Below are positions 2,137 to 10,874 of a stretch of DNA of 14,849 bases, piece by piece. The notes under the pieces are model-generated. The model did not search any database and was not told the DNA's origin. It was given only the letters and a program-made list of their open reading frames with translations. The DNA comes from Nitrospinota bacterium. Its GTDB lineage: Bacteria > Tectomicrobia > Entotheonellia > J063. Position numbers and translations under genes: made by a program. The number at the start of each line of letters is the position of its first letter. Position 1 is the stretch's first letter. The DNA lies in contig RFHZ01000381.1 of NCBI GenBank assembly GCA_003696125.1, positions 1 through 14,849 on the forward strand, given 5' to 3'.

Positions 2137-3015
2137 TCAGTACCGATGGCTTAACGGTTCGGTAGCGGTCTGCTGCCTCTTGAAGGCGATGACCGTATTC
2201 TTCACCAGCATGGCAACCGTCATCGGTCCCACCCCCCCGGGAACCGGGGTTATGGCGGCTGCCTTCTCCTGGACCGAGACAAAATCGACATCCCCGACCA
2301 CCTGGCCGTCGATATAGTTCGAGCCGGCATCGACCACCACCGCTCCCTCCCGGATCATGTCCCCGGTAATGGCCCGTGGTTTATGGATATCGACGATGAG
2401 GAGGTCTCCCTGCTGGATCTCGGGACGAGCCATGGAGAGGTCATCCGGGCAGAAGGTAATGGTGGCATTCTGGTGGAGGAGGAGCATGGCCACAGGTTTC
2501 CCCACCAGCTCGGTTCGCCCCAGGATCACCGCCCGTTTCCCTTCCAGCGGGATACGGTAACGCAGCAACAGCTCCAGAATGCCGGCCGGAGAACAGGAGA
2601 GGGGGGGAGCCGTATTGGTCACCAGGCGGCCGATGTTCAGCGGGTGAAAACCGTCTACATCCTTTGCCGGCGCGATGTTGCGCACCACCTCTTCCTGCTG
2701 GATATGAGGAGGGAGGGGAAGCTGGACCAGGATGCCATGCACGGACGGGTCTTTGTTGAGATGGGCGATCAAGGCGAGGAGCTGCTCCTGGGTCGTCTCT
2801 GCAGTGAGCCGATGATGGAAGCACTCTACCCCGACCTGCTTGCAGGCACGTTTCTTGTTGCGCAGGTAGAGATGGGTCGAGGGATCATCTCCCAGAGAGA
2901 TCATGGCCAGCCCGGGAGCCATGCCGAACTCCTGGCGCAGCAGGGCCACCTCGGGTTGCAATTCCTGCAGGATCGCCTGCGCTACCGCTTTGCCATCGAG
3001 AATCACTGCACTCAT
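2137..3015 (-). CDS. folD: Methylenetetrahydrofolate dehydrogenase/cyclohydrolase (FolD) with atypical cofactor loop
   Basis: FolD interconverts 5,10-methylene-, methenyl- and 10-formyl-tetrahydrofolate in the cytoplasm. I chose the ATG at 3013-3015, which overlaps the nifS1 stop in an ATGA; a GTG 15 nt upstream has no ribosome binding site. The 292-residue protein keeps the folate-site residues Y50, K54 (YLRNKK), Q98 (VQLPLP) and D121 (KDVDGFHP), plus VILGRTELVGKP (163-174) and PVPGGVGPMTVAML near 257-270. One segment is unusual. Where the family normally has an H-[SR]-x-T-K-type loop followed by VAAVGKP, this protein reads FCPDDL (188-193) and then LLIVDIHKP (205-213). The basic/Thr loop that contacts the NADP 2'-phosphate is therefore replaced by acidic residues. 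By inference, cofactor preference may be NAD, or the dehydrogenase half may be weakened. Family assignment is secure; the cofactor is open. Confidence 0.93.
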   Translation of the reverse strand: MSAVILDGKAVAQAILQELQPEVALLRQEFGMAPGLAMISLGDDPSTHLYLRNKKRACKQVGVECFHHRLTAETTQEQLLALIAHLNKDPSVHGILVQLPLPPHIQQEEVVRNIAPAKDVDGFHPLNIGRLVTNTAPPLSCSPAGILELLLRYRIPLEGKRAVILGRTELVGKPVAMLLLHQNATITFCPDDLSMARPEIQQGDLLIVDIHKPRAITGDMIREGAVVVDAGSNYIDGQVVGDVDFVSVQEKAAAITPVPGGVGPMTVAMLVKNTVIAFKRQQTATEPLSHRY

Positions 3016-4181
3016 GCTTTCTCTTCCCACAGGAGAGAGGTGAGGCGGAGTTGTTCGACGATCGGGGGGAGGAGGTCAAGGACAGAGGTGATCTCCTCCT
3101 CCGTATTCCCGCGTCCCAGGCTGAAGCGGATGGCACTTTTGCTCTCTTCCGGCGTGAGCCCCATCGCTTCCAGGACATGGGAGGGCTCCAGGCGTCCAGA
3201 GCTACAGGCGGAACCGGTGGAGACAGCCACTCCCTGGAGGTCGAGGTGGATGAGGAGCGCCTCTCCTTCCACCCCATGAAAGCTGAGGTTGACCGTAGTG
3301 GGCAGCCGTTGGGTCGGGTGACCGTTTAAGGAAACACCGGGGATGGTGGTGCAGATCCCTTCCTGCAGGCGGTCTCGTAGCCTGGCCAGGCGCTCTCCCT
3401 CCTGCTTCATCACCCGTCGCGCGATGGCACAGGCCTTCCCCAGGGCCACGATCCCGGCCACATTTTCCGTCCCTGCCCGGAGTCCCCCCTCCTGGTGTCC
3501 ACCGCTGATCAGGGGCCAGAGCGGTGTCCCCTTGCGGACATAGAGGGCCCCGATTCCTTTGGGGGCATACAGCTTATGGCCGGACAGGGAGAGGAGATCT
3601 ACCCCCAACGCCTTTACATCCACCGGGATCTTCCCCACACTCTGTACCGCGTCGGTGTGGAAGAGAACCCCTTTCTCTTTGGCCAGGGTGGCCAGCTCTG
3701 CTACCGGTTGAATCGTCCCCACCTCGTTGTTGGCATGCATGATGGAGACCAGGATCGTCTCCGGTGTCAGCGCCGCCTCCAGGTCGGCCGGATCGACCTG
3801 CCCGTACCGGTCTACCGGGAGATAGGTGACCCGGTACCCGTACGTCTCCAGCAGGCGGCAGGTAGAGAGCACGGCCGGATGCTCCACCTGGGAGGTGATG
3901 ATCTGCTTCCCTTGTTTCCAGTAAGGGAAGGCTACCCCTTTGAGGGCCAGGTTATCCGCTTCGCTTCCCCCGCTGGTGAAGAAGATCTCAGCCGGGTCCT
4001 CTGCCCCGATGAGCAGCGCCACCTCTTCACGTGCCTGTTCCACGGCCCGCCGCGCCTCCCTGCCCCAGTGGTGCAGGCTGGAAGGATTGCCAAACTGTTT
4101 CTGCACAAAAGGGGCCATGGCTTCCAGCACCTCTTCATCCACCGGCGTGGTGGCGTTGTGATCGAGATAGATCCGCTGCAT
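3012..4181 (-). CDS. nifS: Cysteine desulfurase, NifS/IscS type (paralogue 1)
   Basis: A 389-residue class V PLP aminotransferase-fold enzyme that removes sulfur from cysteine as an enzyme-bound persulfide and passes it to a scaffold. It begins with IYLDHNATTPVD and has SGGSEADNLALKG (70-82), QVEHPAVLSTC with His101 over the PLP ring, HTDAVQSVGK (175-184) and the PLP lysine K203 in SGHKLYAPKG. The loop STGSACSSG carries catalytic Cys326. The frame is open further upstream, but the ATG at 4179-4181 matches the family N-terminus and lies 2 nt after the nifU stop. Its stop overlaps the folD start. It is about 60% identical by eye to the second desulfurase on the other side of nifU, so the two flank one scaffold gene. 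Selenocysteine lyase activity is a known side reaction of this family, but nothing here proves it. Confidence 0.95.
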   Translation of the reverse strand: MQRIYLDHNATTPVDEEVLEAMAPFVQKQFGNPSSLHHWGREARRAVEQAREEVALLIGAEDPAEIFFTSGGSEADNLALKGVAFPYWKQGKQIITSQVEHPAVLSTCRLLETYGYRVTYLPVDRYGQVDPADLEAALTPETILVSIMHANNEVGTIQPVAELATLAKEKGVLFHTDAVQSVGKIPVDVKALGVDLLSLSGHKLYAPKGIGALYVRKGTPLWPLISGGHQEGGLRAGTENVAGIVALGKACAIARRVMKQEGERLARLRDRLQEGICTTIPGVSLNGHPTQRLPTTVNLSFHGVEGEALLIHLDLQGVAVSTGSACSSGRLEPSHVLEAMGLTPEESKSAIRFSLGRGNTEEEITSVLDLLPPIVEQLRLTSLLWEEKA

Positions 4182-4183
4182 GC

Positions 4184-4576
4184 TCAGGATTTTCCTTTCC
4201 CTCGTCGTGCTCGATAATCGTCCAGGGCCTCCTCCAGGGCCTCGATCACCAGGTCGGCCGCATGCTGTTTCACCCGGGGCAATCCCCCTAAGGCCTGGGA
4301 GATCTCTTCCGGGGTCAGGGCAGTCGCTTCTGCCAGCGACCTGGACTTGACCAGGGTGGTCAAGACCGAGCTGGCGGCAATCGAGGCTTCGCAACCGAAG
4401 GTCTTGTACCGGATCTCGGTGATCCGGTCCCCTTCGATCCGCAAAAAGAGCTTCATCGTATCACCGCAGACCGGATTGGAGACGGTCGCCATCCCATCCG
4501 GATCTTTGATTTCCCCCGTGTTGCGCGGATTCTTGAAGTGGTCGAGGAATTCTCTGGTATAGGTGATCTCTTCCAT
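4184..4576 (-). CDS. nifU: Fe-S cluster scaffold protein, NifU/IscU type, lacking the third cysteine
   Basis: A 130-residue single-domain scaffold on which sulfur from the flanking desulfurases and iron are assembled into clusters. Recognisable motifs are FLDHFKNPRNTGEI (10-23), NPVCGD with Cys37 and Asp39, and FGCEAS with Cys62. Where IscU-type proteins normally have a LPPVKxHC motif, this one reads GGLPRVKQHAADL: His105 is kept but the usual third ligand cysteine (position 106) is alanine. There is no C-terminal NifU ferredoxin or Nfu domain. The ATG lies 5 nt after the nifS2 stop, with AGGAAAG just in front. It may be a two-cysteine scaffold or sulfur carrier rather than a standard [2Fe-2S] scaffold; this is inference. 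Placement between two nifS genes strongly supports a role in Fe-S or sulfur transfer. Confidence 0.92.
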   Translation of the reverse strand: MEEITYTREFLDHFKNPRNTGEIKDPDGMATVSNPVCGDTMKLFLRIEGDRITEIRYKTFGCEASIAASSVLTTLVKSRSLAEATALTPEEISQALGGLPRVKQHAADLVIEALEEALDDYRARRGKGKS

Positions 4577-4581
4577 CTTTC

Positions 4582-5754
<1,173 letters not shown>

Positions 5755-5809
5755 GGTCGAGTATCCTTTCCCTCTGCTGGCGCTTGCTTTGTCCCTCTGG
5801 CTTTCTCCG

Positions 5810-5838
5810 ATTTTAGCATACTCGTCTGCTGGAAGCAA
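5810..5838 (-). promoter_or_regulatory. Sigma-70-type promoter for the nifS-nifU-folD-xse-ispA operon
   Basis: Read on the minus strand, the -35 box TTGCTT (5833-5838) and -10 box TAAAAT (5810-5815) are separated by 17 nt. A TG one base upstream of the -10 box gives an extended -10. Predicted transcription begins near 5803, leaving a leader of about 50 nt before nifS2. No other strong promoter was seen within the operon, whose genes are tightly packed. Confidence 0.65.
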
Positions 5839-10397: not shown

Positions 10398-10530
10398 GAT
10401 AATGTTACTGTTACATTGGCATTTTACCGCAGACACGCTGAGGTCGCAGAGGATATCTCTGGGATGAATTGCAAAAAACGCTGTTCCTCTCTGCCTTCTC
10501 TGCGAACTCTGCGGTGAATTTAACATTGTC
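10398..10530. repeat. Imperfect palindromic intergenic repeat (CCGCAGA/TCTGCGG type)
   Basis: The outer ends GATAATGTTA (10398-10407) and TAACATTGTC (10521-10530) are inverted copies with one mismatch. Inside them, ATTTTACCGCAGA (10421-10433) is mirrored by TCTGCGGTGAATTTAA (10508-10523), followed inward by CGCAGAGG (10445-10452) and CTCTGCCTTCTCTGCG (10489-10504). The whole is about 133 bp, non-coding, and resembles the ACCGCAGAG...CTCTGCGGT sequences found between genes in many unrelated bacteria. It could be a REP-like or MITE-like element, since it has terminal inverted repeats but no transposase. I saw no other copy in this window. Confidence 0.6.
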
Positions 10531-10618: not shown

Positions 10619-10640
10619 GGAAAGCCGAGGAGGGAAGCGT

Positions 10641-10874
10641 ATGGAGATCGAGATTTCTTACTGCACCGAATGAGGATACCTGGCAGAAGCCGTCCAGGTA
10701 GCGACGGCCGTCCTTGAAGCCAAAAAACAGGAGGTAAAGGCCTTACACCTGATCCCGGTAAGCCGGGGACGGTTTGAGGTAAAGCGTGATGGTGAGATGA
10801 TTTACAACAACGAAGGGGATCTCCCCGATCCAGAGGCGGTATTACAAAAGCTCGGGATACCCGCGAAAGCGTAA
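10641..10874 (+). CDS. SelW/Rdx-family selenoprotein with in-frame TGA (Sec at codon 11)
   Basis: Reading through the TGA at 10671-10673 as selenocysteine gives a 77-residue protein ending at TAA 10872-10874. It begins MEIEISYCTEUGYLAEAV, so Cys8 and Sec11 form the CxxU redox motif at the end of the first beta strand, exactly as in the thioredoxin-fold SelW/SelT/SelH (Rdx) family. The second half is equally typical: GRFEVKRDGEMIYN near 43-56, then GDLPDPEAVLQKLG (59-72), matching the G-x-FEV-x-x-DG signature and the terminal helix. The ATG has AGGAGGG about 7 nt upstream. The frame is open for 66 codons after the TGA and conserves family features throughout, so the TGA is not a random stop. 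The family is thought to act in thiol or selenol redox chemistry; its substrate is unknown. Expression needs SelA/B/C/D, encoded outside this window. It converges on the chemoreceptor gene. Confidence 0.9.
10671..10708 (+). promoter_or_regulatory. Candidate bacterial SECIS element
   Basis: Directly after the TGA (10671-10673), TACCTGG (10677-10683) and CCAGGTA (10694-10700) form a perfect 7-bp stem with a 10-nt loop. If the closing G-C pair opens, the 12-nt loop starts with G, as bacterial SECIS loops usually do. An alternative, mutually exclusive stem pairs GCCGTC (10689-10694) with GACGGC (10703-10708) around an 8-nt loop, placing that loop farther from the TGA. Bacterial SECIS hairpins lie within the coding region just 3' of the UGA and are bound by SelB, so the placement fits. 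Which fold is used cannot be decided by eye. Confidence 0.65.

Follow-up and report, generated by a model that had tools for sequence, protein, structure and literature searches.

Bacterial SelW-like selenoproteins

SelW-like selenoproteins had been reported in bacteria by 2005-2006, deltaproteobacteria included (PMC1794560). They make up the most abundant selenoprotein family in the Sargasso Sea (PMC1088965), and 427 GOS sequences of this type have been described (PMC2398784). In eukaryotic selenoprotein W, selenocysteine (Sec) is inserted via a SECIS element in the 3′ UTR, outside the coding region (PMC1088965). The bacterial element is described by a model (bSECIS) with a loop of 3-9 nt, a stem of 4-16 bp, a distance of 16-37 nt from the UGA and a minimum free energy (MFE) of at most -7.5 kcal/mol; one of the first two loop positions must also be a G (PMC13188914).

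The locus described here lies in a 14,849-nucleotide stretch of DNA (the window) from a metagenome-assembled genome (MAG) of a Nitrospinota bacterium. Like the known bacterial SelW-like selenoproteins, it encodes a protein of about 75 aa with an N-terminal CxxU motif and homology over its whole length, in a genome that holds Sec machinery, and the UGA is followed at a short distance by a hairpin whose loop lies at about +22. We are highly confident that positions 10641-10874 (Table 1) form a working selenoprotein gene of the SelW-like (Rdx) family, and the internal UGA is very probably read as Sec. The original prediction had proposed this decoding, which is supported. For a gene of this type it is no surprise: SelW-like proteins are among the commonest bacterial selenoproteins (PMC1088965, PMC2398784). 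With high confidence, then, the gene adds a clear, divergent member to an already known selenoprotein type. What it contributes is a selenoprotein gene missed by ordinary ORF calling, in a poorly known lineage (only five genomes of its class available for comparison) that very probably decodes UGA as Sec in no fewer than three genes (two Rdx and SelD).

Table 1. Features of the SelW-like gene, in window coordinates
Feature	Position	Strand	Basis
SelW/Rdx-type selenoprotein gene	10641..10874	+	translation, PF10262, TIGR02174, structure model, codon-usage test
Shine-Dalgarno GAGGAGGG	10627..10634	+	sequence; 6 nt 5′ of ATG
Start codon ATG	10641	+	
CxxU redox motif C-T-E-U = TGC ACC GAA TGA	10662..10673	+	Cys8, Cys/Sec11 invariant in 16 homologues
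In-frame TGA, codon 11	10671..10673	+	
Probable bacterial SECIS hairpin GCCGUC-CAGGUAGC-GACGGC	10689..10708	+	folding, homologue comparison
Stop codon TAA	10872..10874	+	

Family membership and fold

With TGA read as Sec (U), the frame translates as MEIEISYCTEUGYLAEAVQVATAVLEAKKQEVKALHLIPVSRGRFEVKRDGEMIYNNEGDLPDPEAVLQKLGIPAKA, 77 residues followed by TAA, with only one in-frame TGA. The 78 codons originally claimed for it thus include the stop, and the frame itself stands; coordinates and translation likewise agree with the claims of a TGA at codon 11 within YCTEUGY (CxxU) and of a strong ribosome binding site just before the ATG. This translation matches the PF10262 (Rdx) profile over residues 2-71 (E=4e-14, 53 bits; cut-off 22.6), bearing out the predicted family, and scores 45.6 bits with TIGR02174 (NCBIfam CXXU_selWTH), above the curated cut-off of 34.2. 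The narrower NF041051 (Campylobacter SelTWH) model gave 51.5 against its cut-off of 88. The gene had also been called invisible to normal ORF calling: there is indeed no ordinary ORF of at least 80 aa in the gap that holds it, but it is not unknown to annotation, since the curated CxxU models catch it.

The CxxU motif (YCTEU, residues 7-11) follows strand 1, as in the Rdx family, and an alignment of 16 rows shows no variation at Ile5, Tyr7, Cys8, Cys/Sec11, Gly43, Phe45 or Pro62. An AlphaFold2 model made from the single sequence, without an alignment, reached a pLDDT of 89 with the order E-H-E-E-E-H, that is, the beta-alpha-beta-beta-beta-alpha, thioredoxin-like fold that the Rdx family requires. 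Foldseek returned 21 matches at E<=0.001, every one a bacterial Rdx/SelW-like protein, with thioredoxins ranking next. The solved structures 2oka, 2obk, 3dex, 2fa8, 2ojl and 2p0g, which we take to be Cys-type Rdx proteins in contrast to the Sec of the window gene, have the same fold as the model (TM ~0.79 and rmsd ~2 Å over 71-74 columns in most), although their chains are longer, at 103-108 residues versus 77. Eukaryotic selenoprotein W (2npb, mouse SelW) is distant: it shares the thioredoxin-like fold, with a profile match of E 2.9e-5.

In several respects the protein differs from other SelW-like proteins. It is at most 41% identical to any homologue compared, it has a two-residue deletion after strand 4 (YNN--EGDLPDP versus SKxxTGRFPE), it reads SRGRFEV where GSGGxFEV is usual, and an SK motif, a frequent feature of Rdx proteins, is missing. 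The same genome holds a second, more typical Rdx copy (contig C573), which has a TGA at the same CxxU position (MQVEIVYCAAUNYTPQ...).

Homologues and place in the Rdx family

A search of 386 genomes, with matches kept at E<=1e-6, gave 80 Rdx matches; 65 of them contain exactly one internal TGA and 15 none, and in all 25 TGA-bearing sequences that were read the TGA lies at CxxU. Homologues that ended at the TGA, or could not be aligned beyond it, had been named beforehand as grounds for giving up the Sec reading. Instead, homologues align with the window protein over its full length and have either a Sec-TGA or a Cys at the codon-11 position.

The nearest sampled relative, on locus L152, is of the Cys type (41% identity), and the tree joins the two with support of 98/94-96, on long branches and 70 columns. 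Searches of genome contigs and viral contigs found no close relatives of the window protein. The window gene is a divergent paralogue within the Rdx family, and a Cys in its nearest sampled relative is a mild surprise. Sec may have been gained in the window lineage, or Cys may have arisen in L152; either direction fits. A more far-reaching proposal, which we hold to be possible though rather unlikely, is that the gene stands for a divergent Rdx subfamily of its own, with a Cys protein as the nearest known member. Sec would have been acquired there, or retained by this gene alone, in a history separate from that of the main bacterial SelW-like Sec clade, and one genome would hold two functionally distinct Sec-Rdx paralogues.

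Two further loci deserve mention. On L152 (400-1450), a long ORF resembling UGSC-family proteins directly precedes the Cys-type gene. The Rdx gene on L045 (619-840; G004:C216) contains a TGA (YCVAUKHLATATW), yet in the tree it falls within an otherwise Cys-type Rdx clade; a 6-bp hairpin, CGCCAC/GUGGCG, comes after its TGA, and the gene is a possible case of independent Sec gain.

A hairpin after the UGA

The hairpin in Table 1 has a 6-bp stem and an 8-nt loop starting at +22 after the UGA, with a folding energy of -9.3 kcal/mol alone and -10.3 kcal/mol with flanks. Its loop, stem, spacing (21 nt) and energy are all within the limits of the bSECIS model, but the first G of the MFE loop is at position 3; a G falls within the first two positions when C22-G28 closes an AGGUA loop, a pairing that lies 0.3 kcal/mol above the MFE. 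A strict scan that demanded a G at one of these positions gave no match in the window gene, and only an unrestricted scan and RNAfold detected the hairpin. Another candidate, ACCUGG/CCAGGU, was discarded because its loop at +11 is nearer to the UGA than the published model allows. Taken singly, the fold is only mildly unusual: an equally good hairpin occurs in 4.7% of shuffles, the 58-nt context is unremarkable (folding z -0.44), and with more surrounding sequence another structure is marginally favoured.

Comparison among homologues is the stronger support. When positions +11 to +40 were folded in 37 homologues (24 Sec-type, 13 Cys-type), the apical loop fell at +22/+23 in 23 of the 24 Sec-type genes and in 3 of the 13 Cys-type genes (p=8e-6, indicative only, as the rows are phylogenetically related). 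The loops of the Sec-type hairpins typically hold AGU or GGU. The Sec reading thereby gains a line of evidence absent from the original prediction, since a hairpin recurs across the family where a SECIS would be expected, and the placement of the loop is a rule usable for finding and annotating such genes.

Selenocysteine machinery and proposed decoding

Absence of selA, selB, selC and selD would have counted against Sec decoding; all four are present in the genome, SelD as a fragment. The tRNA-Sec scores 74 bits (gathering score 47), and ARAGORN gives its anticodon as TCA. SelB (386 bits) and SelA (526 bits) are adjacent on contig C102; an N-terminal part of SelA is on C184, in an overlap almost identical to C102, as a single gene broken at the ends of two contigs would appear. 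For SelD, the initial third lies at a contig end (G000:C684) and scores above the cut-off. Its active site contains an in-frame TGA (ACAGUASK; L019 267-269, minus strand), followed by a strong hairpin, GCCCGGC-GGU-GCUGGGC; judged by these features, the SelD of this genome is probably a selenoprotein itself. A second SelD candidate, on C642 (65 bits), was set aside: it is below the cut-off and its ORF resembles another PurM/HypE-type protein.

The MAG is 8% contaminated and consists of 990 contigs. Among 98 genomes, the closest relatives of its SelB come from four genomes of the same class (58-62%), and the same four also carry relatives of the window's XseA (54-64%), so the Sec machinery is no obvious contamination. 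G+C content is in agreement as well, at 0.56-0.62 for the machinery and 0.588 for the window. A separate scan with XseA found distant relatives only, the best (56%) in 'Deltaproteobacteria' MAGs. Across the 98 genomes, full-length SelB occurs in 16 of the 17 with a TGA-bearing Rdx gene and in 29 of the 81 others (Fisher p=1.5e-5). The lone exception, G065 (L155), has a TGA-bearing Rdx gene and no SelB above the curated cut-off in a genome that is 99% complete; it may reflect an assembly gap, a divergent SelB or lost Sec decoding.

Given these components, selenium insertion and redox activity of the protein can be inferred as follows. The mRNA would be translated from the ATG at 10641. SelA, with selenophosphate from SelD, would produce Sec-tRNA(Sec), which SelB, bound to the hairpin just 3′, would deliver at the UGA of codon 11, and translation would then run on until the UAA (10872), yielding a single-domain thioredoxin-like protein in which the CxxU pair sits where strand 1 leads into helix 1. 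Motif and fold together point to a small cytosolic thiol/selenol oxidoreductase, probably one that forms a Cys8-Sec11 selenenylsulfide.

Other readings of the in-frame TGA

Codon usage in frame 0 fits that of the window's other genes, both over the whole gene and in the part after the TGA alone, whereas the two other plus-strand frames have negative scores and 4-6 stops each. None of 5000 shuffles reached the post-TGA score. About 5.6% of shuffles leave this region open, so openness is a weak argument by itself, and the case for a real gene is carried by homology and codon usage.

Among the features that weigh against a Sec gene are its divergence (best identity 41%), its long branch, the missing SK motif and the Cys-type L152. 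A divergent gene on a long branch with a Cys-type nearest relative could be a pseudogene of a Cys-type Rdx gene in which a nonsense mutation (TGC/TGT to TGA) terminates translation after 10 residues. Such a history is very unlikely: the sole stop coincides exactly with the family's Sec codon, the genome has the complete Sec machinery, the frame continues unbroken past the stop with gene-like codon usage, every family-invariant residue is retained, and a hairpin occupies the family's SECIS position. An in-frame TGA within a conserved frame could also arise if UGA were read genome-wide as another amino acid (Trp or Gly, codes 4 and 25). However, 8 of the 13 neighbouring genes listed terminate in TGA. 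UGA thus serves here as an ordinary stop, which excludes wholesale reassignment; moreover, the TGA aligns to Cys or Sec in all homologues, never to Trp or Gly, and the probability of this reading is negligible. A chance open frame or assembly artefact with no gene at all, for which the many contigs of the MAG and the open shuffles might speak, can be dismissed in view of the strength of the family match and a confident single-sequence model that resembles SelW-like structures.

The SelW-like gene and its surroundings

The SelW-like gene lies, as first described, between a metallophosphoesterase gene 317 bp upstream and a convergent chemoreceptor gene downstream, neither of which hints at a substrate. 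No sigma-70-like promoter or intrinsic terminator was found around it on the plus strand. Elsewhere in the window (3012-5838, minus strand), an IscU/NifU_N gene is flanked by two cysteine desulfurase genes in one cluster. Upstream of the SelW-like gene, window positions 10415-10530 are occupied by an interspersed palindromic repeat of ~116 bp (ACCGCAGA...TCTGCGGT), which folds as a single long imperfect hairpin (-37.8 kcal/mol) and has 23 matches in the genome, other copies being up to 91-93% identical.
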